From Armatimonadota bacterium (GTDB lineage Bacteria > Armatimonadota > UBA5829 > DTJY01), in contig JANYKG010000003.1 in the NCBI GenBank assembly GCA_025358205.1, positions 1-36,006 of the forward strand: a DNA stretch of 36,006 bases, given 5' to 3'. Positions 1 through 34,924 of the stretch are shown here, one piece after another (position 1 is the stretch's first letter; every line of letters starts with the position of its first letter). Below the pieces are notes generated by a model. The model worked only from the letters and a program-made list of their open reading frames with translations, did no database searches and was not told the origin of the DNA. A program made the position numbers and the translations under genes.

Positions 1-39
1 CCCGAGATGATGGAGAAGATCGGCAGCTCGCTCGAATAG
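1..39 (+). CDS. 3' end of an unidentified gene
   Basis: An open frame enters from the left edge and ends in PEMMEKIGSSLE followed by TAG. It is too short to identify. I read it as coding because the following 100 bases look intergenic and contain a hairpin, and the next plus-strand start has a good ribosome binding site. It could also be chance. Confidence 0.3.
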   Translation, partial: PEMMEKIGSSLE

Positions 40-74
40 GCTGTGAGCGCGAAGAGCCGGTGCGTCCGACATCT

Positions 75-977
75 TCACGGCTCAACTAACTCTCCATGCA
101 AATGTCTTGCATGGACATGCTCTGTCAAAAGGAGAACTCCGATGAAGTCTTTGCTACTTGGTTCCGTCATCGCGGCCAGCGTGTTTGGCATGTCGTTTCG
201 GAACCCGGCAAGTTTTATTTTGTCTTTCATGCCCAGTTCCTCAATCTGCTCCATGAACTTCGGCGGCACTCCGTCCGGTGTGGGTTTGTCTCCCACTATC
301 ACAAACCGTACATCCGGACGCTGAGCGGCAATCTTTGCCGTTGCCTCCACAAAATAGGACAGACCTTTGCGCGCGATGAAGGCCGCAGCAGCGCCGACGA
401 GCGGAACGTTTTCATCCACACCAATCTCTCGTCGAAATGCCGACTGGTCGGCGGCTTTTGGGTCGAACTCGCGAAGGTCTATTCCGGTTGGAATGGAGAC
501 CACCCTTTCCGGCGGCAGACCGGTGCGCTCTATGACATACTCTCGTATCGCCTCACCCGAAGTAGTGATCATGTCAGAGAGCCTGCAGTAGAGGAGTCTG
601 CTCTCGAAAGATTTCTTGATATTTGAATGGTTGTGTCTTGTCCTTACAGTCATGATGGATCCGGCAAGTTTGGCTGCGATCAGACCGGTCCAAGCATCTC
701 GTGAGCTGTGCGCATTCACGATATGCGGGCTAAACTCCTGCATGAACACTCTCAATGCTTTTATGCCTGCGATATCAAACGCGCCTGCCATACCGGTGGT
801 GAATGTGTTTACACCCCACTCATGCGCCCGCTCTGCTATTTTGGTGTTCGGCTGGCAGGCAAGAGTCACGGAGTGGCCGCGGTTTATCATCCCGCGGGCC
901 TCTGAAAGAATACGCATCTGCTGCCCGCCCCATCCGGTAGCCGCTTCCATATGCAGGATTCGCCACTGACTGTTCAA
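75..977 (-). CDS. GT4 glycosyltransferase, C-terminus lost
   Basis: This is a family 4 (GT-B fold) glycosyltransferase, probably adding a sugar to LPS core or another surface glycan. The N-terminal Rossmann half is intact (ILHMEAATGWGGQQ, NAHSSRDAWTG), as is the start of the C-terminal half (SIPTGIDLREFDP, FVIVGDKP, GFRNDMPNTLAAM). After that last motif the family normally continues with the sugar-nucleotide binding segment (an EGLPxxLLEAMA-like block) and about 100 more residues. Here the frame instead runs into unrelated sequence at about 165-180 and stops at 75. I chose the TTG at 977 because GAGGTGA sits 5 nt upstream; an ATG at 1016 would overlap the upstream gene. The protein as encoded is about 300 residues and very likely non-functional, or the junction is an assembly artefact. 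Confidence 0.75.
   Translation of the reverse strand: MNSQWRILHMEAATGWGGQQMRILSEARGMINRGHSVTLACQPNTKIAERAHEWGVNTFTTGMAGAFDIAGIKALRVFMQEFSPHIVNAHSSRDAWTGLIAAKLAGSIMTVRTRHNHSNIKKSFESRLLYCRLSDMITTSGEAIREYVIERTGLPPERVVSIPTGIDLREFDPKAADQSAFRREIGVDENVPLVGAAAAFIARKGLSYFVEATAKIAAQRPDVRFVIVGDKPTPDGVPPKFMEQIEELGMKDKIKLAGFRNDMPNTLAAMTEPSSKDFIGVLLLTEHVHARHLHGELVEP
93..115. repeat. perfect 9-bp hairpin in the gap
   Basis: TCCATGCAA and TTGCATGGA are perfect inverted arms around a 5-nt loop. The hairpin lies between the end of the left-edge reading frame and the start of the truncated secreted-protein gene. No T-run follows, so it could be an operator or a weak terminator; the sequence does not decide. 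Confidence 0.45.
142..186 (+). pseudogene. 5' fragment of a secreted-protein gene
   Basis: A strong ribosome binding site (AAGGAG, 7 nt upstream) precedes ATG, and the first codons read MKSLLLGSVIAASVFG, a typical signal-peptide start with a basic residue and a hydrophobic core. From roughly codon 11-16 onwards the plus strand is simply the reverse complement of a glycosyltransferase coding region, so the rest of this gene is missing. The frame stays open to 324 but that part is antisense. This is one side of a junction between two unrelated sequences, natural or from assembly. Confidence 0.5.
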
Positions 978-1012
978 TTGGTCACCTCTTCCGCAGCACG
1001 GTGTATCACGAC

Positions 1013-2242
1013 TCACAGTCTGTTCATGAAGGCTATCATATTTTCGGCGCGCTTATCCCAGGTTCGTTCTCGCACATCCAACGCTGCTTGTTCCGCCAAT
1101 TTCTGCGCCAGAACCGGATTCTCCTGGAGCCGTCTGATTCCATCAGCCAGCGCCTCGGGATCTTCGGCCGCAGTCAGCAGGGCATTGTGTCCATCCGTCA
1201 GTATTTCGCGTATGGACGGCAGATCGGAGGCGATTATAGGGCGCCCGGAGGCCATGTACTCGAATATTTTCAGGGGAGAGGTGAAGTAATCTGATATCTG
1301 CGAATGACGCAACGGCAACACAAAGGCATCGGCATCTTGCAGGTAGTCAAATCGCCTTGCCGGCTCTATGTATCCATCGAATATGACCGTGTCTGAGACA
1401 CCCATCTGTTCAGCGATCAATCTGTGGCGCGCCACTGCTTCGTCTGTGCCGCCAACAATTCTGAACACGGCATTGGAGAGGTGTTTCATCGCCGCAATCA
1501 TCACGTCTACGCCCTTCCAGTGATGCAGGCTGCCCAGATAGAGTATCACGAATCGCTTATCCGCTATTTGTACAGATTTTCGCTCATTGTTTGGCTCTAA
1601 CTGCGTGGAGTCTATGGCGCTAGGGGCTATCAACACATCCGCCTTGATATGGTAAGTCTCCCTCAGCATGTCGGCCAGGCGATTGGTGAGGCAGATGATT
1701 CCGTCCACATTCGTGCAGACATATCGTTCCAGGTCGGTCAGCTTGCGGGTCTTACGATTCTGCACGGTTCCGCTTCGCTCCAGATTATCGCGGAACGTGA
1801 TGGCAAATACCTCATGCGCCTCATACACTATTGGAGGGAGGTTCAGTACGCGTTTAGCTTTCAAGAGGAACCTGGCCAGCTTCAAGTTGCGCACCAGTAT
1901 CACATCAGCTTGACCTTCGCGGGCTTTGGTTGAGATGATTCGGAGCAGGCAAGCCCAGTGATGCAGACGGTTCGTGTGTACTCTCACATTGCCGATTCCC
2001 CAATGGAAGCGCGGTGTCAATAGGAGTCGAAGGTTCTTCGGGATTTCAATTCCGTAGTACCGAAGTACACACTCAGATGGTGACATGCTGCGCATGCCGG
2101 GCTGGTTCATATACTCCCCGCTTCCGCTTGCTATCAGGCAGACATCCGCCTGACGTGCCAACGCGGCGCAGTTCTGCAAAACCTGCAACGCCGGAGCGGA
2201 TCTGGATATTAGCGAGTCGGAATAAGCGTATATGATCTTCAT
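1013..2242 (-). CDS. GT4 family glycosyltransferase
   Basis: A 409-residue GT-B glycosyltransferase, cytoplasmic or membrane-associated, predicted to transfer a sugar from a nucleotide donor onto LPS or another cell-surface acceptor. Visible motifs are ILYLGSLHHWKGVDV at the start of the C-terminal domain and SPLKIFEYMASGRPIIASD, which contains the nucleotide-sugar binding acidic residue of the GT1/GT4 superfamily. The frame is open up to 2443, but the upstream heptosyltransferase-like gene ends at 2341. I therefore chose the ATG at 2242 (MKIIYAYSD), which aligns with usual family starts even though its purine-rich GGGAGGGG lies rather far upstream. It is the second to last gene of the LPS run. 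Donor and acceptor cannot be read from sequence. Confidence 0.85.
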   Translation of the reverse strand: MKIIYAYSDSLISRSAPALQVLQNCAALARQADVCLIASGSGEYMNQPGMRSMSPSECVLRYYGIEIPKNLRLLLTPRFHWGIGNVRVHTNRLHHWACLLRIISTKAREGQADVILVRNLKLARFLLKAKRVLNLPPIVYEAHEVFAITFRDNLERSGTVQNRKTRKLTDLERYVCTNVDGIICLTNRLADMLRETYHIKADVLIAPSAIDSTQLEPNNERKSVQIADKRFVILYLGSLHHWKGVDVMIAAMKHLSNAVFRIVGGTDEAVARHRLIAEQMGVSDTVIFDGYIEPARRFDYLQDADAFVLPLRHSQISDYFTSPLKIFEYMASGRPIIASDLPSIREILTDGHNALLTAAEDPEALADGIRRLQENPVLAQKLAEQAALDVRERTWDKRAENMIAFMNRL

Positions 2243-2340
2243 TTTGGAAAAATGCAACCCCTCCCGGCGCACAATGGAGAATTCAACACATGGCGCCATT
2301 ATTCCTATGCGCTTTGGGGTGTGATGGCGAAGATACTGGG

Positions 2341-3336
2341 CTAGGATATCAAGGCATGCACTGCGGCGAAAACCGATTCCGGGGACATTTGCTCCATGCA
2401 TTCGCGTTCGGTAGGGCATGTGGTCTGCAGGCAAGGGCTGCATTGCGTACCCACGCGGACTATCCTAAAGATTCCGCCCTGAGGGCCGGTTTTATCGGAG
2501 TCGGTCGGTCCGTACAGACCAACCACGGGCGTCTGCATCGCGGCGGCCAGGTGCAGCACACCGGAATCTACGCCCACAAACACCGTCGCCCGTTCCAGCA
2601 GCGCGGCCAGTATGGGCAGCGAAGTGCGTCCGTTCAGGTCAATTGCGTTTTTCGTTCGGCTGGATATCCCGCACCCGACGGAGATGCCTACGACCAGTGA
2701 CTTACCGCCTGTTTCCTCGGCAAACTTGTCTGCCACGGTCGCGAATCCATCGTCCGTCCAGCGTTTCACTTCTCGTCGGTCGGATGTGCCTGGCGACAGA
2801 ACCGCAAACGGCTCATCCTGCCCTATGCCTTCCGACTTGAGTATTTCGGTTGCCATCTCGCGTTCGGCAGCTCCGGGGTGAATCAGGCCGGCATAATCGC
2901 ATTTGACTATCGGACATCCCACTACTTCCACCAGTTTGAGGTTGCTCTGGATGCAGGGCGGACGGGATCTGGGTACGAGGTGGGTGGCGAACATTCCTGA
3001 GACTTTTCCGTCAAAACCGACTCTGGTTTTCGCACCGCTTAGGCCCGCCAGGACTGACATGCCGAATGAGGTGGAGAATACTATGGCCATGTCGGGTTTC
3101 TCGTGCCGGAGCGCCGCCGCCAATTCAAAACCGGTGCCGATGGGTCTCCGCCGTCGCTCGATCACCCTGTCTACCAGGCCAGACATGCGGATGAGATCCC
3201 TTAGGTGTGGTCTGGCGATGCTGATGATCTCCGCTTCCGGAAAGTGCGATTTCAGATTGTGTATCGCGGGAAGTGAGAACAGCAGATCGCCTACCTGGTT
3301 TAGATGGAAACAGGCTATGCGCCTAGGTTGATCCAA
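2341..3336 (-). CDS. GT9 heptosyltransferase-like (WaaF-type)
   Basis: A 331-residue glycosyltransferase family 9 protein of the ADP-heptose:LPS heptosyltransferase type, which builds the inner core on Kdo-lipid A at the cytoplasmic face. The N-terminus MDQPRRIACFHLNQVGDLL carries the family's N/SxxGD nucleotide-site pattern. Later come SPGTSDRREVKRW, the VGVDSGVLHLAAAMQTPVVGLYG donor-binding block, and a cysteine-rich tail (CSPCLQTTCPTERECM) typical of many GT9 proteins. It sits 17 nt after another GT9 gene, and the pair resembles a WaaC/WaaF inner-core set. Whether the sugar is really heptose is inferred, since no ADP-heptose synthesis gene is in the window. Confidence 0.85.
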   Translation of the reverse strand: MDQPRRIACFHLNQVGDLLFSLPAIHNLKSHFPEAEIISIARPHLRDLIRMSGLVDRVIERRRRPIGTGFELAAALRHEKPDMAIVFSTSFGMSVLAGLSGAKTRVGFDGKVSGMFATHLVPRSRPPCIQSNLKLVEVVGCPIVKCDYAGLIHPGAAEREMATEILKSEGIGQDEPFAVLSPGTSDRREVKRWTDDGFATVADKFAEETGGKSLVVGISVGCGISSRTKNAIDLNGRTSLPILAALLERATVFVGVDSGVLHLAAAMQTPVVGLYGPTDSDKTGPQGGIFRIVRVGTQCSPCLQTTCPTERECMEQMSPESVFAAVHALIS

Positions 3337-3353
3337 AGGTGGTTAACCCCGTG

Positions 3354-4406
3354 TTACTCTGCTGCCGATTCCGCTGCCAGCCATGCGCCGGATTCTGACA
3401 ACACATCATCTGGTGTAATGTCGCACATGCAATCGAAGCGCTTGCAGGTCGGACGCCTGAAACAAGGCATGCACGGTAGATTCTTAGCCACAATGGACAA
3501 AGTATCCTTCTTCCCCAGATAGTTCCATAGGGTCGGACCAAAAAGTCCTATCAACGGCCTGTTCAATGCGTTGGCGATGTGGAACAGCCCGGTGTCCACA
3601 GAGATTACAAGGTCACTCTGTTCAAGCACCGCTGCCGCCTGTTTGATCGTTGTCTTGCCTGCCGCGATTGTCGGATGTGTGTGCATTAAGGTCATGATCC
3701 GAGCAATCATGCCTGCATCAGCAGGCGAACCCATGAATATGGTTTGAGCGTTGTGTTCCTGCGCGAGCCTGTCTGCCAGACTAGCCCATCCTTCTTCTGT
3801 CCAGTGTTTTTGCGGCCAGGTGGTGGCCGGGCACAGTGCCACTGTCTTGCGACCGTCCCGGGTGATTAACTCGTGTGCAAGTTCGCGGTCTGCCTGTGTC
3901 AGCGGCATGTGCATTTCCAGCGCACCGGGCTTTACGCCCAACTGCTCCAGCATGTCGCTGTAGAGTTGTATGCCTCGCGCATCCCGGTTGGCGATGTGCA
4001 GCACCCTGTTGTAGAGTCGGCTCGCCCCTTCGCGCGCATTGTCATACCCCACACATGTTCGCGCCCCGCTGAGTCTGGCGACAAACGCGCTTTTCAACAA
4101 GCCTTGAAAGTCTATCGCTGTGTCAAATCGTTGTTGTCGCAGTTCTCGTCTCAGCCGCACAATGGAGGCTAGAGATCCAGCCGCCTTACCGATACGCCCG
4201 CTGGTCGAGTGTTGCCACACGATGACTTCATCCAAATATGGGTTGCCTGTCAGCACATCCTTTGATTTCGATTCTACGACCCACGCTATGTAAGCGTCGG
4301 GAAACGCCGTGCGCAGAGCTTGTGCGACCGGTGTGGTCATCATTACATCACCGATGGCGCTGAGGCGTACTATGAGTATTCTCTTGCACTCGCCGGGTAT
4401 CAGCAT
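3354..4406 (-). CDS. GT9 heptosyltransferase-like (WaaC-type)
   Basis: A 350-residue glycosyltransferase family 9 protein. It begins MLIPGECKRILIVRLSAIGD, the classic heptosyltransferase start, followed by DFQGLLKSAFVARLSGA, which resembles the WaaC acceptor-side segment. Further on are LCPATTWPQKHW and SVDTGLFHIANALNRPLIGLFGPT for the ADP-sugar site, and a CMPCFRRPTCKRFDCMC cysteine cluster near the end. It overlaps the end of lpxK by 7 nt, so it is probably translationally coupled to it. This fits a role right after Kdo transfer: the first core sugar on Kdo. The WaaC-like assignment is more tentative than the GT9 family call. Confidence 0.87.
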   Translation of the reverse strand: MLIPGECKRILIVRLSAIGDVMMTTPVAQALRTAFPDAYIAWVVESKSKDVLTGNPYLDEVIVWQHSTSGRIGKAAGSLASIVRLRRELRQQRFDTAIDFQGLLKSAFVARLSGARTCVGYDNAREGASRLYNRVLHIANRDARGIQLYSDMLEQLGVKPGALEMHMPLTQADRELAHELITRDGRKTVALCPATTWPQKHWTEEGWASLADRLAQEHNAQTIFMGSPADAGMIARIMTLMHTHPTIAAGKTTIKQAAAVLEQSDLVISVDTGLFHIANALNRPLIGLFGPTLWNYLGKKDTLSIVAKNLPCMPCFRRPTCKRFDCMCDITPDDVLSESGAWLAAESAAE

Positions 4407-5512
4407 GGTTCGTCGCGGATAGCGTCCTCCAGCATGTTCCAGAATCCGGTCTCATCTGAGAGTTCCAGCCTGATTCTCAGTGAGTAAGCATCAGCAGCGA
4501 AGTCGTGTCCTTGTAGTTTCACGGCATCCTTGTCTGTGGTGATGATCATCTCGGCTCCATTGTCCACCGCGCTACGGTTGACGCACGCGATATCCTCCGC
4601 CCAGTAGCAGTGATGATCGGCGAACTGCTCTCGTGCCGTCAGCGACGCGCCCAGGTCTTTGATCGAACGTTCAAATCCTGACGGATTCGCGATGGATGAC
4701 AGCGCTAGAACCTTGCGACCTCTCAGCGTACTTACGGGCAGTTCGCGTGTGCCGTCCAGTGAAACTAGTGTACACGGCATGAATTTTCCATAGAAGATTG
4801 CGGCATCAGAGTGAGTCCTGACCGTGGCCGTCATCTCATCACGGCGTTTGGAACTCCAGTCACCGGTCGCCAGCACGCAGTCCGCCCGCGCAAGCCCTGA
4901 GAGCGGTTCCCGGAGTCTGCCTGCGGGGAGCAGCCTGCCGTTGTCGAATCCTCCGTCTGAGTTGACCAGCACGATATTCAGGTCGCGGTAGAGTTCACGT
5001 ATCTGAAACCCATCGTCCAACACCAGCACATTCGCGTTCATATCCTGGATCGCGGCGGCGCCACTCAATCGGCGGTTTTTGCACACCAGCACCGGCACGC
5101 CGGGGAGCGACTTTGCCAGCATCACCGGTTCGTCACCAGCTACCTCTGCGGTGAGCAGGACGTTACGGCTGTCCGAAACCGCCCCAAACTTGCCGTGAAG
5201 CCGACCGCCGTATCCGTAACTCAGAGCCGCCGGTCTCAGTCCTCTATCCACCAGGCCCTTGCACACGTACTGCGTGGTGGGCGATTTCCCTGTTCCGCCG
5301 ACCGTGATATTCCCAATGCTTATAACCGGCACGGACAACCGCCACTGTTTGCGCAACCCCAAGTCATGAGGCAGCACGCAGGCCTTTTGTCCGACCCAGT
5401 GTACACCGGAGAGCGCATTCAGCCCCGATCTGGCCAGCGTGGCGCGCATGTCCTTCCGGTCACTGTAGATAGCCCATTCCAGAAATTTTACGACGCGGCG
5501 GTTTGGAGCCAT
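4400..5512 (-). CDS. lpxK: tetraacyldisaccharide 4'-kinase LpxK
   Basis: LpxK phosphorylates the 4' position of the lipid A disaccharide at the inner membrane, giving lipid IVA. The 370-residue protein has the P-loop GNITVGGTGKSPTT (residues 67-80; Ser replaces the usual Thr after the Lys), GDEP at 126-129 and VLVLDDGFQ at 162-170, all diagnostic of the family. An amphipathic N-terminal segment precedes the P-loop, as usual. The start codon directly follows the waaA stop codon (TAGATG), and the gene overlaps the next glycosyltransferase. Its place after waaA is consistent with one lipid A/core operon. Confidence 0.95.
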   Translation of the reverse strand: MAPNRRVVKFLEWAIYSDRKDMRATLARSGLNALSGVHWVGQKACVLPHDLGLRKQWRLSVPVISIGNITVGGTGKSPTTQYVCKGLVDRGLRPAALSYGYGGRLHGKFGAVSDSRNVLLTAEVAGDEPVMLAKSLPGVPVLVCKNRRLSGAAAIQDMNANVLVLDDGFQIRELYRDLNIVLVNSDGGFDNGRLLPAGRLREPLSGLARADCVLATGDWSSKRRDEMTATVRTHSDAAIFYGKFMPCTLVSLDGTRELPVSTLRGRKVLALSSIANPSGFERSIKDLGASLTAREQFADHHCYWAEDIACVNRSAVDNGAEMIITTDKDAVKLQGHDFAADAYSLRIRLELSDETGFWNMLEDAIRDEPC

Positions 5513-6811
5513 CTATTCCACCGCCTTCCGCATCATATGCTGCGTTATGATCTCCGCGCATCGCAGAGACGCGCCTCCATTCTCCGCCGCCAGTTGCCTA
5601 CACTTATTGTCTATAGCCTTCCTGCGCTCAGGATCGCTCAACAGCTTCGATCCCAGTGCCGATAGTTCATCCGCATCTTTGATCTCGAACCCGACGCCTG
5701 CCGATATTGCCATCTCGGCTATGTCGCGGGTCTTGAAGGTGTGAGGCCCGAAGAAGACCGGTTTTCCCTGAAGTATCGGCTGTACTATGCTGTGACCGCC
5801 CTTTGGCACCAGTGTCCCGCCCACGAAAGTGATGTCGCCGACAGCGTAGACTCTCGCCAGTTCGCCGAGTGTGTCCAATATCAGCACATCGGTATCCGGC
5901 GAGAACACTTTTTCACGCGAACGCTGGGCGCATACCATGTTCTTGCTTTCGGCCATTGCTCGTATCTCCGCGCCGCGTTCGGTTTGCCTGGGAGCGAGAA
6001 TCAAGCGCAAATCCGGCATCAAGGCGCGCATAGACTGGAAGGCGGACAGTATCGGTTCATCCTCGCCTGGGTTGGTGCTTCCTGCTACGAACACCGGTGA
6101 CTCGGCGCCAATGCCCAAGTCCGTCTTTTGCGTGAGTACGGCTTCTTCGGTAATGTGTGATCCCTCTTGGTCAAATTTCGTGTTGCCGGTGACTCGCACT
6201 GCATCCGGGTGCGCGCCCAGTGACCGAATCCTTTCCGCGTCATCCTCGGTCTGCATGCAGCAACGGTCAATGTTTGCATAAGCCCATGCGCCTAGCCACC
6301 GCCATATCGGGCCGCTGTTCATGGCCTTATCGGTTATGCGCCCGTTTGCGAGCGCCATTGGGACGCCTCTGCGCCGCGCAGTCGCGAGCAGGTTTGGCCA
6401 TATCTCGGCTTCCATCAGCACCAGTGCATCAGGCCTGATTCGGGAGAACGCGCGGTTGATGAATAGAGGGTAGTCCATGGGAAGATAGCTGACTGCATCG
6501 GCAGCCTTGGCGGACTTACGCGCTATGTCGTTACCGGTCTTGGTAATGGTGGTCAGTAGTATGAAAGCGTCCGGCATGATGCGCCTTATTTCATCCTGGA
6601 TGGTGAGCGATGCCACCACTTCGCCGACCGAAACCGCGTGTATCCACACCAGCTTCCTATCTGCCGGTCTGTTGCACAAAATGGGCATGTACCCCAGGCT
6701 CTCGCGCCAGGACTCGCGTGATTGGCGCGAGACTAGCACCCGCCAAAGGTAGTAAAGCACCCACACAGGGAAGAGCAGTACAATCACAATGTTGTAGATG
6801 ACGTTTACCAC
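5513..6811 (-). CDS. waaA: Kdo transferase WaaA (KdtA)
   Basis: A GT30 enzyme that transfers Kdo from CMP-Kdo to lipid A precursor at the inner membrane. The 432-residue protein starts with one membrane anchor (residues about 5-25), then WIHAVSVGEVVAS with the expected catalytic Glu (about residue 64). It continues with the family's LMEAEIWPNLL, VAGSTNPGEDEPIL and VGGTLVPKGGHSIVQPILQGKPVFFGPH blocks. Its length matches the family. It begins 6 nt after the DUF374 acyltransferase gene and abuts lpxK. In E. coli LpxK acts before WaaA; gene order here is the reverse, which is common. Whether it adds one Kdo or more cannot be seen. No CMP-Kdo synthesis gene is in the window. Confidence 0.95.
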   Translation of the reverse strand: MVNVIYNIVIVLLFPVWVLYYLWRVLVSRQSRESWRESLGYMPILCNRPADRKLVWIHAVSVGEVVASLTIQDEIRRIMPDAFILLTTITKTGNDIARKSAKAADAVSYLPMDYPLFINRAFSRIRPDALVLMEAEIWPNLLATARRRGVPMALANGRITDKAMNSGPIWRWLGAWAYANIDRCCMQTEDDAERIRSLGAHPDAVRVTGNTKFDQEGSHITEEAVLTQKTDLGIGAESPVFVAGSTNPGEDEPILSAFQSMRALMPDLRLILAPRQTERGAEIRAMAESKNMVCAQRSREKVFSPDTDVLILDTLGELARVYAVGDITFVGGTLVPKGGHSIVQPILQGKPVFFGPHTFKTRDIAEMAISAGVGFEIKDADELSALGSKLLSDPERRKAIDNKCRQLAAENGGASLRCAEIITQHMMRKAVE

Positions 6812-6817
6812 AGTGGA

Positions 6818-7474
6818 CTAACTGCCTTCCTTTGCCAGCGCCTGCGCCTCTGCCTGCATTTTGTCCAGGGCTTCCTTGATGATTAGTCTGGGCGACGGGT
6901 CTGCCTTGTCGTCCGGTACGTAGATGGGATCGCCGAAGACTATCGCACCACGCGCGAAAGGCATCGGCACCGCATAACTGTCCCAGGCGTTCAGGATCTT
7001 CCGTCGGCTGATGCCAACGCCAACCGGTATTACGGGACATTGTGCGCGATGCGCAAGAAACACGATGCCTTCCTGCACTTCATTCGGCGGACCCAACGGC
7101 CCGTCCGGTGTGATGGTGAGTATTCCGCCTTCCTCAAGTCGCTTGGCCGCCAGCAGCCCGGCCTTGACCGCACCGCGTCCGGTGGAACCACGGATAATCT
7201 TGAACCCGCATCGGCTGACAACATGCGTCTGAATCTCGCCGTCTATGGAGAGTGAAGTGATGGCCCAGAACCCCATGCCGCGAACAAAGAATATCGGCAG
7301 GAGGGTGCGTCCGTGCCAGACTGCCATGATGAAGCCCTTGCCTTCTTTCTGAAGAGCGCGCACTTTGTCGAATCCAATAACTTTCAAGCGGCATGTGTGG
7401 CCTATAAACTGCATCACCAGCCACGCCATGAACGCTGTTATCCTGAGTCCCGATGCACTCCTAAGCAGCTTCAT
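6818..7474 (-). CDS. DUF374 lysophospholipid/lipid A acyltransferase-like
   Basis: A 218-residue DUF374 protein, a branch of the glycerolipid acyltransferase superfamily. Visible motifs are AVWHGRTLLP (catalytic-type His 54), SLSIDGE (76-80), IRGSTGRGAVKA (94-105) and ITPDGPLGPP (121-130), with a hydrophobic N-terminal stretch. It sits exactly where lpxL/lpxM would be expected, between the lipid A exporter and waaA, overlapping the exporter stop by ATGA. I infer that it adds a secondary acyl chain to the lipid A precursor. The family context supports this but the substrate is not shown by sequence. Confidence 0.85.
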   Translation of the reverse strand: MKLLRSASGLRITAFMAWLVMQFIGHTCRLKVIGFDKVRALQKEGKGFIMAVWHGRTLLPIFFVRGMGFWAITSLSIDGEIQTHVVSRCGFKIIRGSTGRGAVKAGLLAAKRLEEGGILTITPDGPLGPPNEVQEGIVFLAHRAQCPVIPVGVGISRRKILNAWDSYAVPMPFARGAIVFGDPIYVPDDKADPSPRLIIKEALDKMQAEAQALAKEGS

Positions 7475-9267
7475 GTCTTGTCACCATTCGACCCGGATTT
7501 GCTCTGTATTGTGTACAGTTCCGCATAAAGACCGCCTTTGGAGAGCAGTTCCTGATGGGTGCCGGATTCCACGATGCTTCCGCTCTGCATTACCAGTATC
7601 TTGTCTGCGTTTACGATGGTGGACAGTCGGTGCGCGATCACCAGCGTAGTGCGAGACTGCATCAGCCTTTCAAGAGCCTCCTGAACTATGGATTCCGATG
7701 CCATGTCGAGTGACGAGGTAGCCTCATCCAGTATCAGCAGCTTGGGGTTCTTGAGCAGTGCGCGCGCGATGGCCACTCTCTGCCTTTCTCCGCCGGAGAG
7801 CCTGGTTCCGCGCTCACCTACAAGCGTGTCATATCCCTCAGGCAACTTCTCAATGAAGCCGTGGGCGTTTGCAGCTTTGGCGGCTTCAATGATCTCCGCG
7901 TCGGATGCACCGAGTCTACCGTATTCGATGTTTTCACGTATGCTGGTACTGAACAGCATTGTCTCCTGCGGGACGATGCCTATCTGTTGACGTAACGAGA
8001 CTAGCGTTGCGTCGCGAACATCCACTCCGTCTACCAACACTGCGCCGTCGGTTACTTCATAGAAGCGGGGGATCAGGTTTGCGATCGTGGATTTGCCCGA
8101 ACCGCTTGGACCGACGAGCGCAATCTGCTGGCCGGGTTCAGCCTCAAACGACACATGATTCAGGATCAGCTTGCCTGCGTTGTATGCGAAGGATACATCG
8201 CGGAACTCCACTCGTCCTTCTATCGGTGGAAGAGTGGTGGCGTTTTCTGCATCCCGCACATCGGGGATCTCGTCGAGTACGTCGAATATCCGTCGAGCGC
8301 CGGCCATGGTCTGGTGGTACGTGACGTTGATCCTGCCGACATTCCGGGATGAATCGGAGATGTTCTTGAGAAGCATCAGGAAAGTCATCATGGCCCCGGT
8401 GTCGAAACCAGGGACGGATTTTGCAGCAACCATCCTGCCGCCGTACCAGAGGACGAACGCTATGCCGATGACCCCCAGCAGTTCCAGTGTGGGAGCCATC
8501 GCCGCGCTCCGCCGAACGCTCTTCATGGCCGCCCCGTATGTGCTGTTGTTTTTATCGGCAAATCGGGATGTCTCGTACTCTTCCATCGAGAATGACTTTA
8601 CTATGCGAACGGCCGAGAGGGTTTCCTGTACCACGGCAGCCACATCGGCAAGTCGGATCTGAAGCAGTTCTGTGACGCTTCTCATGCCGCGGCTAATCTT
8701 CAATACACTGTAGGTCATAAACGGCATGACGACCAGCGATACCAGAGCCAACTGCCAGTTCTTGTAGAAGAGCGCCACAACGGAAGTGGCTATCCCGATA
8801 GGCGCTGAGACTGCGTCTATGATCTGGTTCGCCGATGCTTGGATCAAACCCACGTCATTGGTCATTCGCGACATGAGGTGTCCGACTTTGGTTCTCTCGA
8901 AGTAACTCATTGACAGGGACTGAAGGTGTCCGTACAGTTCATTTCTGAGGCGAACTGCGATTTTCTGAGTCGCCGAGGATATCAGATAGGTTTGTTGGTA
9001 TGAAAATAACCATTTCAGGGTGTATATGCCAACGATTGACAGCGCAACTGTGTCCAGCTTTCTCTGCTGGCTGCCGATGGCTGCTCGAACAACATCGCCG
9101 ACGAGAAACGCGAAAAGAAGATCAATGCCCTTGATAGCCAGCGTACATATCAATCCACCGCAGAAGAGCTTCCAGTGCGGCTTGTAATATCCTATGAGAC
9201 GCTGTTGTTCTGTGCAGCTCGAACCGGCGCCTTTCTTCGGTTTATCAATCTTTCGGGGCTTAATCAT
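7471..9267 (-). CDS. msbA: MsbA-like lipid A exporter (ABC)
   Basis: A 598-residue half-transporter with an N-terminal six-helix type IV ABC exporter domain (about 30-320) and a C-terminal ATPase. ATPase landmarks are GPSGSGKST (386-394), Q-loop PQETMLFS (about 433-440), signature LSGGERQRVAIARAL (490-504), Walker B LLILDEATSSLD (510-521) and the switch histidine in IAHRLST (about 546). MsbA flips completed lipid A core across the inner membrane, which fits its position between lpxB and the acyltransferase gene. It overlaps both neighbours by 4 nt (ATGA). Many exporters share this fold, so the lipid A substrate rests on context. Confidence 0.9.
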   Translation of the reverse strand: MIKPRKIDKPKKGAGSSCTEQQRLIGYYKPHWKLFCGGLICTLAIKGIDLLFAFLVGDVVRAAIGSQQRKLDTVALSIVGIYTLKWLFSYQQTYLISSATQKIAVRLRNELYGHLQSLSMSYFERTKVGHLMSRMTNDVGLIQASANQIIDAVSAPIGIATSVVALFYKNWQLALVSLVVMPFMTYSVLKISRGMRSVTELLQIRLADVAAVVQETLSAVRIVKSFSMEEYETSRFADKNNSTYGAAMKSVRRSAAMAPTLELLGVIGIAFVLWYGGRMVAAKSVPGFDTGAMMTFLMLLKNISDSSRNVGRINVTYHQTMAGARRIFDVLDEIPDVRDAENATTLPPIEGRVEFRDVSFAYNAGKLILNHVSFEAEPGQQIALVGPSGSGKSTIANLIPRFYEVTDGAVLVDGVDVRDATLVSLRQQIGIVPQETMLFSTSIRENIEYGRLGASDAEIIEAAKAANAHGFIEKLPEGYDTLVGERGTRLSGGERQRVAIARALLKNPKLLILDEATSSLDMASESIVQEALERLMQSRTTLVIAHRLSTIVNADKILVMQSGSIVESGTHQELLSKGGLYAELYTIQSKSGSNGDKT

Positions 9268-10559
9268 TTTCCGTTCCGTGTATCGCTTTTCAGCATATCA
9301 AGCGCAATATGAGCGGTTTTGTCTACCGCGCCTGGTTCGCCGAGCAGACTTCTGACTTCCGCCAGTCCGCTGATCATATCCTCTCTCGCCGGAGAATTAT
9401 GTACCAGTTCCATGGTCAGCGCGGCCAGCGGCTCGGGCTTCATGCCTTCCGCCACCAGTTCATGGCATAGTCGCCGATTCAAGATGATATTCGGCATCCC
9501 GATGAGCTTCTTCCGTCCGCCCTTGAGCTTATATTCGAGAGTGGTGAGCCAGTCTCCTCGATATGCGATAACCATCGGGCATCCGAGTATCGCGGCTTCT
9601 ACCGTCGCGGTTCCTGAGCCGACCACAGCGGCCCTTGAGTGTGCCAGCACATCATAGTTCATGCCGGAAAGCAGGCGGATGAGAATGCTCGTCTCGGGCC
9701 GAGCGATGTCGCTCGTTTTCATCAGCTTGCCGGTGTTGCGTTCCAGTCGCAAAGACCCGCCATGCGGCCTGTGGTGCGGTTCTTGGGTCTCCGAAATGTG
9801 CGTATCAACTTCCAGCCAGTCAATCTCACCGATCTCGTCTGCCAGGCTGACCGGGTCAACTGATTGCGCACACGGTATTACAAACTGCAGATCCGGCATG
9901 ATGTTTGTCATCTGCGCGGCGCAGGCCAGCATGGGCGGCAGGTTATGCTCCAGTTCCTGTGGGCGACTGCCGGGGAGCAATCCCACGATCGGCTTATCCG
10001 CATCAAAGCCGAATCGCGAACAGAAATCTTGTCGCGACAACGTTGGTTTTACGATGTCCAGCAGGGGATGCCCAAAGAAGTCTGCGCTCAGTCCGTGCAG
10101 TCTTAGTCTTTCCGCCGACCATGGAAATGGTGTAACGAACCTGTCCGCCACGCCGATCAACCGCTCGCAGTTCTGGTTTCGGTTCCAGGACCCTGGCGGA
10201 AAGTAGTACAGCGCCTTGATGCCGCGCTCGTGAAGAAATCGTCCCAACCGTGCGTTGAACGCGCCAAAATCTATGAGTACCACCAGGTCGGGACGTCCGG
10301 CGTCGAGAACCCTTTTCATCTGGCGCAGGACGGCGAGCAGCTTGGGCACAAGCTTCAATGACTGAGCCAGGCCGATTGCCGCCCAAGATGTGCTGTCAAA
10401 TAGCAGTTCCACGCCGGCCTCGCGCATCTTCCGCCCGCCGATTCCGCTGATACGCAGGGCAGGAGACATCCGCTTAAGAGCGGCAGCCAGGTATGCGCCC
10501 TGCAGGTCGCCGGAAGCCTCGCCAGCGGAGATTACGACGCGTGGACCGTTCTCTGCCAT
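9264..10559 (-). CDS. lpxB: lipid A disaccharide synthase LpxB, with insert
   Basis: LpxB (GT19) condenses lipid X with UDP-2,3-diacylglucosamine to make the lipid A disaccharide. Family marks are VISAGEASGDLQGAYL (9-24), VLIDFGAFNARL (94-105), GLLPGSRPQELEHNLPPML (193-211) and VGSGTATVEAAILGCPMVIAYR (313-334). Two oddities stand out. The usual SPSVWAWRxxR segment reads YYFPPGSWNRNQN (118-130). There is also an extra stretch at about residues 255-297 (PHHRPHGGSLRLERNTGKLM and following) where I expect direct passage to the donor-binding block. At 431 residues it is longer than the typical 380-390. It follows lpxA with no spacer. Confidence 0.9.
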   Translation of the reverse strand: MAENGPRVVISAGEASGDLQGAYLAAALKRMSPALRISGIGGRKMREAGVELLFDSTSWAAIGLAQSLKLVPKLLAVLRQMKRVLDAGRPDLVVLIDFGAFNARLGRFLHERGIKALYYFPPGSWNRNQNCERLIGVADRFVTPFPWSAERLRLHGLSADFFGHPLLDIVKPTLSRQDFCSRFGFDADKPIVGLLPGSRPQELEHNLPPMLACAAQMTNIMPDLQFVIPCAQSVDPVSLADEIGEIDWLEVDTHISETQEPHHRPHGGSLRLERNTGKLMKTSDIARPETSILIRLLSGMNYDVLAHSRAAVVGSGTATVEAAILGCPMVIAYRGDWLTTLEYKLKGGRKKLIGMPNIILNRRLCHELVAEGMKPEPLAALTMELVHNSPAREDMISGLAEVRSLLGEPGAVDKTAHIALDMLKSDTRNGK

Positions 10560-11363
10560 TTAGTCCCGGTGTTCCATCTGTCTGCCGCCGTATCCGAACT
10601 TGACATTCCGCACGAAGCCAAGCAGATAGTCGCGTTCAGCGCTCGGTTCAATCTCAGCTTCGATGGTCTCGATAGCCTGCGAGAGGTTCAGCTTTGAGCG
10701 GTATAGAATTTTGTAAGCCTGCCGTATGTCTGACCGAACCTTGGCTGGTATCCCGCTGCGCCTGAGGCCTATTATGTTGAGATCAAGCACCTTGCTTGGC
10801 CTGCCGTCCGCAGTCATGAACGGGGGGATGTCCTGCACCACCTTGGAATGACCGCCTACCATGGCGAGTTTGCCGATGCGCACAAACTGATGCACGCCCG
10901 TCATGCCGCCAAACACTGCTTTGTCTTCGATCAGGACGTGGCCGCTGATGCCCACGTTGTTTGCCATCATTATGCCGTTGCCCAGTTCGCAGTTGTGGCC
11001 GACGTGGCAGTAAGCCATCAGCATGTTGTCGTCGCCGAGTATCGTGGTGTTGTCTTCACCGGTAGCGCGATGAATGCTCACGTATTCGCGGAGTATGTTG
11101 CGGTTTCCTATGACGAGATAGCTTCTCTCTTCCTCAAATTTGCTGTCCTGCGGTTTGCCGCCCAGCGCAACGCCAGAGGATATTCGGCACTCTTCACCGA
11201 TGGTGGTCCACTGACGCACTATCGTGTAGGCTTCTATTACGGTGTTCTTCCCGATCTTCACATCAGGGCCTATCACGCAGAAAGGTCCTATCTCTACGCC
11301 GTCGTCCAGTTCGGCTCTAGGGTGAACAACCGCTGTTTCATGGATGATTACTTCGTCCGACAT
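10560..11363 (-). CDS. lpxA: UDP-GlcNAc acyltransferase LpxA
   Basis: LpxA catalyses the first step of lipid A synthesis, 3-O-acylation of UDP-GlcNAc in the cytoplasm. The 267-residue protein is a left-handed beta-helix of hexapeptide repeats (for example VEIGPF, VKIGKN) with the LpxA-specific LGGKPQD segment and the catalytic histidine in YCHVGHNC (His123, matching E. coli His125). It continues with VHQFVRIGKLAMVGGHSKVVQDIPPF and a C-terminal helical domain. The frame can begin with GTG at 11369, but I prefer ATG 11363, which lies 5 nt after AGAGG. The gene follows fabZ by 13 nt and is immediately followed by lpxB. Confidence 0.95.
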   Translation of the reverse strand: MSDEVIIHETAVVHPRAELDDGVEIGPFCVIGPDVKIGKNTVIEAYTIVRQWTTIGEECRISSGVALGGKPQDSKFEEERSYLVIGNRNILREYVSIHRATGEDNTTILGDDNMLMAYCHVGHNCELGNGIMMANNVGISGHVLIEDKAVFGGMTGVHQFVRIGKLAMVGGHSKVVQDIPPFMTADGRPSKVLDLNIIGLRRSGIPAKVRSDIRQAYKILYRSKLNLSQAIETIEAEIEPSAERDYLLGFVRNVKFGYGGRQMEHRD

Positions 11364-11376
11364 GTCCACCTCTTTT

Positions 11377-11862
11377 CTACTTTACGAGAACAGGCTCTTC
11401 CGGCGTTTTGGCTGGTTCATCAGTGGCCTTGGAGTCTCTTTCGACCAGCGCAAAGATGAACTCACCTTCCGCTACCACCTGGTCATTCACTCTGCCTGTG
11501 ACTTTGACCTTGCCGACTGATCCGCGGTTCTTGAGCAGTTCCACTTCTGTGATCAGCACGTCGCCGGGCAGCACGGGCTTGCGGAAACGCACGTTGTCCA
11601 TGCCGCCGAAGTATGCGAGCTTGCCGTTATTCCCGGACATGGTCAGCAGCAGCACGCCGCCTACCTGTGCCATGGCTTCCAGTACCAGCACGCCCGGCAT
11701 TACCGCATGACCGGGGAAATGTCCCTGAAAGAACTCCTCATTGGCCGTAACGCATTTCAGCCCCACAGCGCGTTTGCCCGGTTCCAGTTCCAGTATCCTA
11801 TCCACCAGCAGAAACGGATACCGGTGCGGCAGGATTGCTCTTATTTGCTCTATGTCAAGCAT
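11377..11862 (-). CDS. fabZ: 3-hydroxyacyl-ACP dehydratase FabZ
   Basis: FabZ dehydrates 3-hydroxyacyl-ACP in fatty acid elongation and so competes with LpxA and LpxD for the same 3-hydroxyacyl-ACP pool. The 161-residue hot-dog protein shows [14 protein letters not shown], then [20 protein letters not shown] with the catalytic His48 and Glu62, and [11 protein letters not shown]. About 20 residues of charged, Pro/Glu-rich tail follow the fold, longer than usual. A strong AAGGAGGA precedes the ATG. It sits between lpxC and lpxA; in some phyla fabZ is fused to lpxC, but here they are separate with a 27-nt gap. Confidence 0.95.
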
Positions 11863-11889
11863 ACTACATCCTCCTTACTTTCCTTTGTC

Positions 11890-12702
11890 TTAAAGTGACA
11901 TAATCTTCTTTGCCAGCGAGATATTCAACGCATGGCTGGATCTGAGAGCGGTGATGTTGGCATTGACTCTACGTCCCATCAACGATAGATCGCCTATCAG
12001 GTCAAGCGTCTTGTGCCTCACAAACTCGTTTTCAAATCTTAGTTGAGTGGAGTAGTGGTCTTCATACGCCACTATCACATTATTTTCTGATCCGCCTTTG
12101 CCCAACCCTGCAGCGCGGATCATCTCAATTTCATCGGATGTGCAGAACGTTCTGGCAGGCGCGATTTCTGCCATGAACGTTTCGGGGTCTATGGTAAGAC
12201 TCAGCGCTTGTTCGCCGATCATGGGATGCGAAAAAGAGATTAGCTCCGTGACTCTAAAGCGCGAGTCGGGATCGGCTATTAGGCACTTCGCACCGTCTAG
12301 AACCCAGACCGGCTCCGGGAGCTCCACGATCTCTGCGCGCGCGTCCTGCTCCATAATTCCAGCCTCGACTATCAACTGTGCGAATGGCAGTGCGCTGCCG
12401 TCCGCAGCGGGTATCTCTGGCCCTTCGACCCGTATGAGAACATTGTCTACCCACATACCTGCCAGCGCCGCCAGCAGATGCTCTACCGTATGGATATCAG
12501 CAGAACCGCACTGAATGGTCGTGCCTCGATTTGTGTCCTTCACGTTCGAGGCCAGTGCGCGTACTTCATCGTTCCCCACGACAAACACCACGCCTGTGCC
12601 AGCGTCTGCGGGCAGAAGGTCTATCCGGCACTCTTCGCCGGTGTGCAGGCCGATACCGTGCATTGAGGCGCGTGCCTTCAGTGTGCGCTGCAAGGGGATC
12701 AT
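11890..12702 (-). CDS. lpxC: UDP-3-O-acyl-GlcNAc deacetylase LpxC
   Basis: LpxC is the zinc deacetylase and committed step of lipid A synthesis. The 270-residue protein has GIGLHTGE near the start, HTVEHLLAAL with catalytic Glu74 and zinc ligand His75, HKTLDLIGDL with zinc ligands His230 and Asp234, and the general acid-type His257 in SSHALN. These match E. coli Glu78, His79, His238, Asp242 and His265. Its length is about 35 residues below E. coli LpxC, the usual size in many non-proteobacterial versions. Its ATG overlaps the lpxD stop by one base (TAATG), which suggests translational coupling. Confidence 0.96.
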   Translation of the reverse strand: MIPLQRTLKARASMHGIGLHTGEECRIDLLPADAGTGVVFVVGNDEVRALASNVKDTNRGTTIQCGSADIHTVEHLLAALAGMWVDNVLIRVEGPEIPAADGSALPFAQLIVEAGIMEQDARAEIVELPEPVWVLDGAKCLIADPDSRFRVTELISFSHPMIGEQALSLTIDPETFMAEIAPARTFCTSDEIEMIRAAGLGKGGSENNVIVAYEDHYSTQLRFENEFVRHKTLDLIGDLSLMGRRVNANITALRSSHALNISLAKKIMSL

Positions 12703-13730
12703 TACTCCACCTGATCTTCCAGGTCTTTGACCCGTTTTTCCAGGTTCCTGATGGTTTTTAGAAGGGCAGGAAGCTTAGCCTGAGCAGCCTGAATACGGAT
12801 CTGCTCTTTGTGATCGCGAATCGGGAACCCGGAAACAAAAGACCCCGGCGCTATCTCTCCCGATACTACCGCCCGTGCGCCGACCATTGCATCGTTGCCG
12901 ATTATTGCGTGATCCACAACGCCCACCTGTCCTGCCAGCAACACTCTGTCGCCTATCTGAACGCTGCCGGATATCCCCACCTGGCCTACTATTATGCAGT
13001 TCTCGCCAATATGTACGTTGTGCGCCACGTGGACCAGGTTATCTATCTTCGTCCCCCGGCCTATGATGGTTTTGCCGGTTCTCGCTCTGTCAATCGTGCA
13101 ATTCGCACCGATCTCAACATCGTCGCCTATGACCACTGTCCCGATCTGCGGGATTTTCACGTGCTTGTCAGCTACTCTGGTGTATCCGAACCCGTCTGCG
13201 CCGATCACGGTACCGCTGTGTATGGTCACGCTGTTACCTATCTGCACTGAGTCGAATACCGTCGTGAAAGGGTAGAGAATGCAGTCATCGCCGATGCGAA
13301 CATTGTCGCCCACATAGACGAACGGGTAGATGAAAACGTTTTTACCGATGGTAACGCTCTGCCCGATTTGTACATTGCGGCCTATGGATGGGTTGTCGCC
13401 TATGACGGAGCCGACGCCGACAGTGCAGTCGGGGCTGATACCTTCCGGTCGTTCTTTGTGCGGGGCATATATCGTCAGAATCTGGGCGAAAGCGTGGCGG
13501 GGATTCTGTACCCTGATGAGCGGCTTGCTTTGGCGCTCGGCTGAGGCAAATGTGACAACGGCAGACGCCTTCGATCCGATGGCTTCATCCAGGAGTCGCT
13601 GTGACTCAGCGAAGACTATCATCCCGTCTTTCGCGTCCTGTATATCAGCCGCGCCGGATATCCGCACATCGGGATTGCCGATCAGTTCACCGTTCACCAT
13701 GTCGGCAAGTTCATTTAGCGATTTCTGCAT
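12702..13730 (-). CDS. lpxD: UDP-3-O-acyl-glucosamine N-acyltransferase LpxD
   Basis: LpxD adds the N-linked hydroxyacyl chain in the third step of lipid A synthesis. The 342-residue protein has the N-terminal uridine-binding domain (about 1-95), then a hexapeptide-repeat beta-helix with GTVIGADGFGY, IGANCTIDRA and NLVHVAHNVHIG (His237, matching E. coli catalytic His239). It ends in a C-terminal helix, RNLEKRVKDLEDQVE, that probably forms a short coiled coil in the trimer. It lies 30 nt after an uncharacterised lipoprotein gene and is coupled to lpxC. Confidence 0.95.
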   Translation of the reverse strand: MQKSLNELADMVNGELIGNPDVRISGAADIQDAKDGMIVFAESQRLLDEAIGSKASAVVTFASAERQSKPLIRVQNPRHAFAQILTIYAPHKERPEGISPDCTVGVGSVIGDNPSIGRNVQIGQSVTIGKNVFIYPFVYVGDNVRIGDDCILYPFTTVFDSVQIGNSVTIHSGTVIGADGFGYTRVADKHVKIPQIGTVVIGDDVEIGANCTIDRARTGKTIIGRGTKIDNLVHVAHNVHIGENCIIVGQVGISGSVQIGDRVLLAGQVGVVDHAIIGNDAMVGARAVVSGEIAPGSFVSGFPIRDHKEQIRIQAAQAKLPALLKTIRNLEKRVKDLEDQVE

Positions 13731-13760
13731 AGTCCGGTTCCGTTGGAAGCGCTGGCGCCG

Positions 13761-14375
13761 CTAGTTTGGCAACGCATGATTCTCGGTCTGCTGATGGTCT
13801 GTGCCCAGTGCCTCGGATTCAGCGATGCACAGTGCGTTTAGAGACCTCAGTTGTTCTTTTGCCTCTTCGAGTTTGGTTGCATATTCCCGATTGCCGGTCT
13901 CACCGCTGGCTGCTATCCGCGATTCCAGAACAGCTATTTTCAACTGCAGGTTCACAAACTGGACGCGATATTTCAGCCTTACCGCAGGATTGATCTCAGG
14001 CTCGGGTTTCAGCGGTGGCGGAGCAAGTCCTGATATCGGTTCTACCGGCGCTGTTGCGCCTGACTCGAAAATCCGGGGCTGTTTGCACAGCCCCGACTGG
14101 TAATCATTCCAATACTTGCGGTTGTCAGCAATTTTTGCTACAATCGCGTTTGCCACAGCGTGTGACGGCATCCGGCTGTCCTGAGACTTTTTACCGACTG
14201 TACGGCCAACCGCCAATGGCTTTGCTGCTTGCGATGCTCGCACAGTTCCGAAGGCCGCGTTTGCCGGGTGGCTCACTTCCCGAATCCCGGTCCAAGTGGC
14301 TCCGTTCCTTCCGCAGCCCGCTGCAAATATAACAAGTGTGGCTGCAAACACGCCGACCAACGGCACTATTCGCAT
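13761..14375 (-). CDS. predicted lipoprotein, unknown function
   Basis: I do not recognise this 204-residue protein. It starts MRIVPLVGVFAATLVIFAAG followed by Cys21, a good lipobox, so it should be a lipid-anchored exported protein. The middle is Pro-rich (PEPINPAVR-like region around 120-140). The C-terminal 65 residues (VNLQLKIAVLESRIAASG, KLEEAKEQLRSLNALC) are heptad-like and probably helical or coiled-coil. It begins 4 nt after the skp-like stop and ends 30 nt before lpxD, a place where bamA-skp-lpxD normally run together. I infer a possible envelope role from context only. Confidence 0.7.
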   Translation of the reverse strand: MRIVPLVGVFAATLVIFAAGCGRNGATWTGIREVSHPANAAFGTVRASQAAKPLAVGRTVGKKSQDSRMPSHAVANAIVAKIADNRKYWNDYQSGLCKQPRIFESGATAPVEPISGLAPPPLKPEPEINPAVRLKYRVQFVNLQLKIAVLESRIAASGETGNREYATKLEEAKEQLRSLNALCIAESEALGTDHQQTENHALPN

Positions 14376-14379
14376 GGCT

Positions 14380-15042
14380 TTACTTTTTGTTAATCCTCTT
14401 CAGCACATCGTCCGTGATGTCTAGTGAGCAGTAAACCACAATCACAGCATCCGTAGATGACTTGTTGAAAACAACCGTAATGCCCTTTTCCTTGGCGATG
14501 GCGGCTACTGCCACATTCAGATCCTGAATGAGCTGCGAACTCAGGTCCATGCTTTGCTTGGTAAGATCGGCATCGTATTTTGTGCCGTCGTCCTTATGCT
14601 CCTGCTCCGACTTTTTGATCTGGTCGCCAAGTTGGGCAAGTCGCAGTTTATCTGCGTCGCTCGGCGGCGATTTCTGCTGCAAAGCGGCAAATTCCTGCTC
14701 ACGCTGCTTGGACAATGCCAATATCTCGTCTATCTTTTTCAGATCAGTGTCGAGGGGTTTTGCCTTCAGTTTCAGTTCCACAAGCTGCGCGAACTCTTCC
14801 GATGTAAGCAGCCTGTTCGCAACGCGCAAATCCAACTTCATCTGAGCCTGCTGCGCGGCCAACTTGAGGTCGCCTTCCAGCGTCTTCTTCTTCTCGTATC
14901 CGTCAAAGGCTTTTCCGAAATCCACTATGGCGAATACGGGAACGGTTGATTTGGCATCGGCAGCCATGCCCGCGCCTGCCGCCAGCGCGCCCAATACCAA
15001 CCCGGTGATTATCACGGCGAGTACGCCTCGGTATCTCTTCAT
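14380..15042 (-). CDS. skp: OmpH/Skp-family periplasmic chaperone
   Basis: Skp (OmpH) is a trimeric periplasmic chaperone that carries unfolded outer-membrane proteins to BamA. From the ATG at 15042 the protein is 220 residues. It has a signal peptide (MKRYRGVLAVIITGLVLGAL, cleavage near AGMAADA), then the family's start VFAIVDFGKAFDGYEKKKTL. A long charged helical hairpin (about 50-175) and the closing strand KGITVVFNKSSTDAVIVVY follow. GGAG lies about 11 nt upstream of this ATG; an ATG at 15078 has no visible binding site. Skp is usually about 160 residues, so the helical arms are longer here. It follows bamA after a repeat-containing gap. Confidence 0.88.
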   Translation of the reverse strand: MKRYRGVLAVIITGLVLGALAAGAGMAADAKSTVPVFAIVDFGKAFDGYEKKKTLEGDLKLAAQQAQMKLDLRVANRLLTSEEFAQLVELKLKAKPLDTDLKKIDEILALSKQREQEFAALQQKSPPSDADKLRLAQLGDQIKKSEQEHKDDGTKYDADLTKQSMDLSSQLIQDLNVAVAAIAKEKGITVVFNKSSTDAVIVVYCSLDITDDVLKRINKK

Positions 15043-15136
15043 TGTCTTCGTAACTCCTTTCGGTTTGCGGCCCTTCATGGGCCGTTTCAGAACCGTTCGA
15101 TTATATCAGATCGTCTGATCCTCAGCAAGGCTGCCC

Positions 15137-15206
15137 GCGATATTCACAAATGAGTGTGAATATCGCTCTGAATGCCCGACGTAATGCGTTTCACGCATTA
15201 CGTCGG
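15137..15206 (+). repeat. double-hairpin repeat, copy 1 (bamA 3' side)
   Basis: Hairpin A is GCGATATTCACA / TGTGAATATCGC (12 bp, 6-nt loop). The 10-nt linker TCTGAATGCC follows, then hairpin B, CGACGTAATGCG / CGCATTACGTCG within a 13-bp stem (5-nt loop). The element ends directly at the bamA stop codon. It is the most divergent of six copies in the window but keeps the linker and the TATTCA/TGAATA core. On the bamA transcript it would fold as two strong stems before skp. No T-run follows, so it is not a standard terminator. Confidence 0.8.
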
Positions 15207-17189: not shown

Positions 17190-17253
17190 GATTCGAGTTC
17201 CTTTCTCTATTTCGTACCTATGATGAATCGGGTTATCTCATGAGCTCCGCAGC

Positions 17254-17934
17254 CTATCCCGCTACGTAGTGGGACAAACGCTTTCTCAATGTCTCTCGCC
17301 CTCTGAACAGGCGGGTTTTCACAATCTCCAAGGTCAGTCCGGTTGCCTCTGTGATCTCTTTGTAGGACAGCCCATTCATGTCCCTTAGCGCCACTATCAG
17401 GCGGAAGTCCGGCGGAAGCGCCTGAATTGCTTCTTGGATTTTCTCATCCAGGTCCCGCCTTTCAAATATGCCGGCGGGGTCACTTGAACTATCTGCTATA
17501 TCAGGCTTTCGCGATGAACCATCCGCAGTCGTCTGGTCTAGCGAAATGCCTTCATGCTGGATCTTTCGATTCAATTCCTTGAACCGATTCTTGCAGCAAT
17601 TCACCGCTATTTTGCACAACCATGGATACACGGCATCCGTCGGTCCGGTGAATTTCGAAAAGGCCCTGTAAGCCTTTACAAAAGTCTCTTGTGTCAGGTC
17701 GGCCGCTTCTTCTTTATCGCCGATCAGGCGGTAAGTAAGGTTGTACACTCTCTTGTGGTACTCGCGAAGCGCCGCTTCGAAGCTCAACTTAGCTCCACTA
17801 CTCACGGAATTTCCACCGGTTTTCTGGTGTATCGGTTCGTCCGACAGATTGGAGCAAAGAGCGATTATCAGATCTAGCACATCAGTGCTCGCGCTCGGCA
17901 TGGAGCCGAATTCCGCGTCCACCGATTGAACCAT
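17254..17934 (-). CDS. ECF-type sigma factor
   Basis: A sigma-70 family protein of the extracytoplasmic-function type. Region 2 is FEAALREYHKRVYNLTYRLI and GDKEEAADLTQETFVKAYRAF. Region 4 is ALPPDFRLIVALRDMNGLSY and KEITEATGLTLEIVKTRLFR, the usual helix-turn-helix. Region 3 is absent, as in ECF factors. From ATG 17934 the protein is 226 residues with a roughly 55-residue N-terminal extension of no clear similarity. The frame is open to 18039, but that part would run through a dispersed repeat copy, so I chose the shorter start, though its ribosome binding site is weak. It lies between tamB and bamA with no adjacent anti-sigma gene, and I infer a link to envelope stress. Confidence 0.88.
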   Translation of the reverse strand: MVQSVDAEFGSMPSASTDVLDLIIALCSNLSDEPIHQKTGGNSVSSGAKLSFEAALREYHKRVYNLTYRLIGDKEEAADLTQETFVKAYRAFSKFTGPTDAVYPWLCKIAVNCCKNRFKELNRKIQHEGISLDQTTADGSSRKPDIADSSSDPAGIFERRDLDEKIQEAIQALPPDFRLIVALRDMNGLSYKEITEATGLTLEIVKTRLFRGRETLRKRLSHYVAG

Positions 17935-17995
17935 GGACACATGGTATACAATTACGCGTGTGCAAGCAATTATCCTCCAGACGAGTTGTCGGCCT

Positions 17996-18048
17996 GCATT
18001 ATTCATAAAACCGTGAATAATGCTTAGAAGGCCTTGCATAATGCCGGC
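17996..18048 (+). repeat. double-hairpin repeat, copy 2 (tamB 3' side)
   Basis: Hairpin A is a perfect 10-bp GCATTATTCA / TGAATAATGC around an 8-nt loop. The linker TTAGAAGGCC and a weaker second palindrome (TTGCATAATGC region) follow. The element sits 4 nt from the tamB stop codon and upstream of the sigma-factor start. Confidence 0.85.
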
Positions 18049-18052
18049 TAAA

Positions 18053-34648: not shown

Positions 34649-34724
34649 TGGAGCCGACGATCCGGTTCGAACGGACGACCTGCGCATTACGAATGCGCTG
34701 CTCTACCAGCTGAGCTACGTCGGC
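34649..34724 (-). tRNA. tRNA-Thr (CGT)
   Basis: Full cloverleaf on the minus strand: acceptor GCCGACG / CGTCGGC, D arm GCTC...GAGC, anticodon loop with CGT, T arm with GTTCGAA, and an encoded CCA. Anticodon CGT reads ACG threonine codons. Last gene of the four-tRNA cluster. Confidence 0.93.
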
Positions 34725-34798
34725 TCGTATTATCGGGCATCGTTCGCGGTAAGAGGGAATCTGCCCGTTGCGATCTTCCCGATTCTTCATGAGAACAA

Positions 34799-34843
34799 AG
34801 TGCAAAGAGCAAATCGGTGGCCGGTGTCTTTGTACTCTGTACT
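34799..34843 (+). repeat. tRNA-spacer hairpin repeat, copy 1
   Basis: AGTGCAAAGA / TCTTTGTACT arms (one wobble) around 18 nt, followed by CTGTACT. It sits between tRNA-Phe and tRNA-Thr and matches the repeats in the other two tRNA spacers. Confidence 0.7.
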
Positions 34844-34848
34844 GTTTT

Positions 34849-34924
34849 TGGTGCCGGGACCCAGAGTTGAACTGGGGACACGTGGATTTTCAGTCCACTG
34901 CTCTACCAGCTGAGCTATCCCGGC
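34849..34924 (-). tRNA. tRNA-Phe (GAA)
   Basis: Cloverleaf on the minus strand: acceptor GCCGGGA / TCCCGGC, D arm GCTC...GAGC, anticodon loop CTGAAAA with GAA, T loop GTTCAAC, discriminator A and encoded CCA. Confidence 0.95.

Follow-up and report, generated by a model that had tools for sequence, protein, structure and literature searches.

GT4 glycosyltransferases adopt the GT-B fold and combine an N-terminal domain (PF13439) with a second domain (PF00534/PF13692). A different kind of described system is a draft-assembly contig whose end is chimeric or misjoined; it is characterized by a short unrelated tail at the edge, by gene halves lying at two contig edges and possibly by microhomology at the join. 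For MDA libraries, one study describes chimeric joins that are inverted in most cases, more than 70% of the junctions having been primed at 2-21 complementary nucleotides (PMC1855051). Another names chimeras among the faults of metagenome assemblies and calls joins between two organisms rare (PMC7111523), the latter counting against a chimeric tail; our literature search for the theme of misassembled contig ends gave no match. The locus analysed here resembles both systems. Its GT4 frame shares with the family the N-terminal domain and, of the second one, the first half, but lacks the last ~105 residues, the rest being located on another contig. With misjoined contig ends it shares the tail, the two gene halves and the possible microhomology, differing in that the source of the tail was not found in the genomes, phages and plasmids searched.

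The stretch of DNA under study (the window, 36,006 nucleotides) is the complete contig C89 (1-36006) of the draft genome G000, which comprises 4,075,679 bases in 200 contigs and is 97.16% complete with 0.71% contamination. On its minus strand an open frame of 313 amino acids runs from position 1016 to 75 and starts as a GT4 glycosyltransferase. The N-terminal domain is covered almost entirely (PF13439 Glyco_transf_4, E 2.6e-21, profile positions 1-169 of 170), whereas the second domain is incomplete, with matches to positions 4-77 of 142 in PF13692 and 2-90 of 172 in PF00534, the latter stopping 3-4 residues short of a junction that lies 168 bases from the contig edge. We aligned the window half, together with a second half found on contig C83 (see below), with three relatives, namely a paralogue on C83, a relative from genome G003 (45% identical to the window half) and one from genome G031. 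The similarity to all three full-length relatives reaches ...NTLAAM, after which D follows in 3/3 relatives and T in the window. The Met codon of LAAM is the ATG at 168-170, and residues beyond it derive from the tail. The 5' part of the gene thus comprises 283 codons from the GTG at 1016 to 168 (minus strand), in agreement with an earlier note on this DNA that had called the frame family-like down to about 168. A scan of a contig database added two distant GT4 relatives with 32% and 25% identity.

The frames are open in both directions at the junction, as they would be if a naturally short GT4 gene ended near 168, head-on to a gene for a secreted protein. Half of the second domain is absent, however, the stop-to-stop frames of the three aligned relatives span 379, 383 and 384 amino acids, and a fitting missing end is present on C83, all of which makes a natural short form extremely improbable. 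The three relatives aligned, two of them from other genomes, are full length, and the short natural end that the earlier note had named as a counter-argument to truncation was not seen among them.

To locate the missing end, we took the G003 relative and searched the draft genome with its C-terminal 121 residues, obtaining 19 matches at E <= 10. The best match was the paralogue on C83 (16011-16364), and the second was C83:17160-17411 on the minus strand with 58% identity and an E value of 1.7e-27. As C83 is 17,416 bases long, the latter match sits at the very edge of the contig: including its stop codon the fragment occupies C83:17148-17416, i.e. the last 269 bases on the minus strand, and encodes 88 residues from the contig edge (TQALAMKRPVV...) to a TAG stop. 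Pfam assigns it to positions 95-142 of PF13692 and 111-172 of PF00534, so that 17 and 20 profile positions, respectively, are absent between the two halves. The halves do not overlap, the C83 half starting at TQALAM, 17 alignment columns past LAAM of the window. As the first two edge bases of C83 belong to the preceding codon, these 17 columns correspond to ~49 bp of unassembled sequence, assuming no length difference. The remainder of the broken gene is thus found at the edge of another contig, in matching strand and frame.

A second fragment near a contig edge, C114:198-434, cannot be the missing GT4 end because it covers residues 203-282 (40% identity), a portion already present in the window. 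The C83 paralogue, 46% identical to the window gene, lies in tandem directly after the orphan end (C83:16011-17416), and the single TAG inside the paralogue match 16320-17156 terminates the orphan end itself (C83:17148-17150). Given this tandem paralogue, the C83 fragment could in principle end a further paralogue instead; no other N-terminal orphan was found among the 7 own-genome matches listed, of 8 counted. A repeat was also considered as the cause of the break at the end of C83, but the end is not near-identical to the paralogue, the best stretch being 36 bases at 83%, in a DNA comparison limited to the paralogue and window positions 1-1030, so that another repeat may exist.

The arrangement of the two halves is best explained by one intact GT4 gene with two assembly breaks and a chimeric contig tail, a reading to which we assign a probability of roughly 85%. 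In the organism the gene would run on the minus strand from window position 1016 to 168, continue through ~49 unassembled bases and end in the last 269 bases of C83. Bases 1-167 would be an addition made by the assembler, most likely on the basis of a single chimeric read or a few that extended into a gap in coverage at the contig end. The truncation of the GT4 gene is therefore probably not biological, judged from the sequences, and the gene appears to be split across two contigs. The earlier note had held that the two genes meeting at the junction cannot both be intact; that the GT4 gene is damaged in the organism is not supported, its missing end lying on C83 in the right strand and frame. 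Of the two origins the note had offered for the junction, the chimeric join is favoured by the contig edge and by the GT4 C-terminus at the edge of C83, at the expense of an inversion or deletion breakpoint.

Both halves are present on different contigs of the draft, as they would also be had a fixed inversion or deletion truncated the GT4 gene and moved its end to another site, now on C83. Such a rearrangement requires two independent contig ends close to the breakpoint, at distances of about 170 and 50 bases at most, and strand and order of the halves fit simple adjacency. Moreover, the end of C83 is family-like up to its last codon and hence carries no reciprocal junction. Two contigs that end close to a common point, at distances of ~167 and ~49 bases, would be expected for an assembly break and would be a coincidence for a fixed rearrangement; since both contigs stop beside the same point, we regard the latter as very unlikely.

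The C83 half, which fits an intact gene, would also suit a population in which a minor strain carries a real rearrangement that the assembler followed at the edge, the GT4 gene being intact in the majority, and strain variety can fragment assemblies according to passages of PMC7111523. When the ends of C83 and C89 were compared, they had only words of chance length in common and no sequence bridge, a point that also counts against the proposed adjacency of the two contigs. A simple branch in an assembly is expected to yield contigs that terminate where the branch lies and share overlapping words there, but here ~49 bases are absent instead, no overlap is seen between the contig ends, and the search of the draft gave no convincing second copy of the tail. 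A minor strain is thus an unlikely source of the junction. Similarly doubtful is a real rearrangement, confined to part of the cells, in which a cell-surface glycosyltransferase would be inactivated by a head-on join with the gene of a secreted protein, the two meeting in a short sequence common to both.

The assembly fault being the preferred explanation, the tail (1-167, plus strand) is probably foreign to the GT4 gene. It comprises the terminal part of a frame lying upstream, with its stop at 37-39, then a stretch in which no gene is clear, a ribosome binding site and a signal-peptide-like start. GGAG at 131-134 precedes the ATG at 142-144 by 7 bases on the plus strand, and the ATG with the 13 codons MKSLLLGSVIAAS (142-180) resembles a signal peptide by eye, being certain only to 167, as the frame is antisense of the GT4 gene from about residue 10-13 on. 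The ribosome binding site and the secreted-protein start at 142 that had been noted earlier are hence borne out as far as GGAG and the signal-peptide-like MKSLLLGSVIAAS are concerned, whereas a homology claim for a secreted protein is unsupported because only 9-13 codons are left. A 25-residue stretch of this frame finds only itself in its own draft genome.

When the draft was searched with bases 1-170, the 16 non-self matches at E <= 10 were 14-32 bases long, and no convincing second copy emerged that could represent the tail's own locus. Ten of these matches (nine given loci and one on C80) are separated from their contig ends by more than 1 kb, and the frame that begins at a leader-like match on C56 has no evident signal peptide. 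The search was extended to the phylum (291 genomes including the window's own, 14 of which matched, with at most two candidates scored per genome), where 13 of the 290 other genomes matched at E <= 0.01 in 14 non-self rows of 22-44 bases. Contrary to plain chance, 10/14 of these rows fall within query bases 3-42, i.e. the end of the upstream frame. We translated eight stretches in the frame of the tail, seven from the phylum and one from the own draft, and only that of genome G163 has its stop at the corresponding position (MFEKIVSSLG* against MMEKIGSSLE*), the remaining seven continuing past the stop site in different-looking frames. From this similarity, G163 possibly harbours a frame distantly related to the upstream one.

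Comparison of window positions 1-1016 with 101 relatives (at most four candidates scored per genome) gave matches in four, and among the matches listed none but the window's own lay in the tail. When five family genomes were scanned with a degenerate pattern representing the upstream frame's end, one gave a match, namely the window itself, as many as with the reversed pattern used as a control. Likewise, the tail had no match in phages and plasmids and no exact 28-mer in viral contigs. The tail may stem from a gap in this draft or from another organism in the sample. A perfect inverted repeat, TCCATGCAA-5 nt-TTGCATGGA, spans 93-115 just upstream of the signal-peptide start and is possibly an operator; its inner 19 bases have one copy with three mismatches elsewhere in the draft.

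In the junction zone the stretch CATCGCGGCCAGC (168-180) is readable both as GT4 (minus strand, LAAM) and as signal peptide (plus strand, IAAS). Since our searches did not reveal the second parent sequence, the stretch shared by both parents, which the earlier note had put at about 20 bases, is bounded only between 0 and ~13 bases. The 4.08-Mb draft contains a single exact copy of CATCGCGGCCAGC, and site-specific inversion at this sequence was dismissed for lack of a second one. Copies with one mismatch number 33 including its own (19 forward, 14 reverse), compared to 6 and 7 for the reversed-pattern control, and the window contains seven copies with two mismatches versus 1.94 expected, a count reached in none of 100 shuffles. 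This excess putatively reflects codon usage for Leu/Ala runs. Foldback priming was considered as well, with GGTTCCG/CGGAACC (160-166/199-205) flanking the junction, but the 260 bases that contain this pair include two further 7-base pairs.

For annotation, the GT4 gene should be described as split across contigs C83 and C89 and not as a pseudogene, and bases 1-167 should be kept out of gene-neighbourhood inference, making the junction a matter of quality control. Because both halves can be fitted to full-length relatives with a gap of 17 alignment columns, C83 most likely precedes C89, and both contigs, in the orientation given, most likely form one glycosyltransferase cluster transcribed leftward, as read from the gene order. 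Downstream of the fragment C83 encodes, on the same strand, the GT4 paralogue and then two more frames that are glycosyltransferase-like by appearance. Upstream of the GT4 gene the window contains one glycosyltransferase-like and then two heptosyltransferase-like genes (1013-4406, minus strand), named by resemblance. In G003 the order is heptosyltransferase-like, GT4, GT4 and an rfaE-like kinase frame, with names again by resemblance, which is similar, not identical. The region 4400-22570 presumably constitutes a cluster of outer-membrane/lipid A type, with frames resembling LpxK, KdtA, MsbA, LpxB, LpxA, LpxC, LpxD, Skp, BamA and TamB.

At the right edge of C89 (35900-36006) a transposase-like fragment (Pfam rve_2, E 3.1e-6) is cut by the contig edge, transposase-like sequences being a common place for contig breaks. 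Four tRNA genes in a row (Thr, Phe, Asp, Val; 34649-35341, minus strand) are located ~0.6 kb from this fragment.
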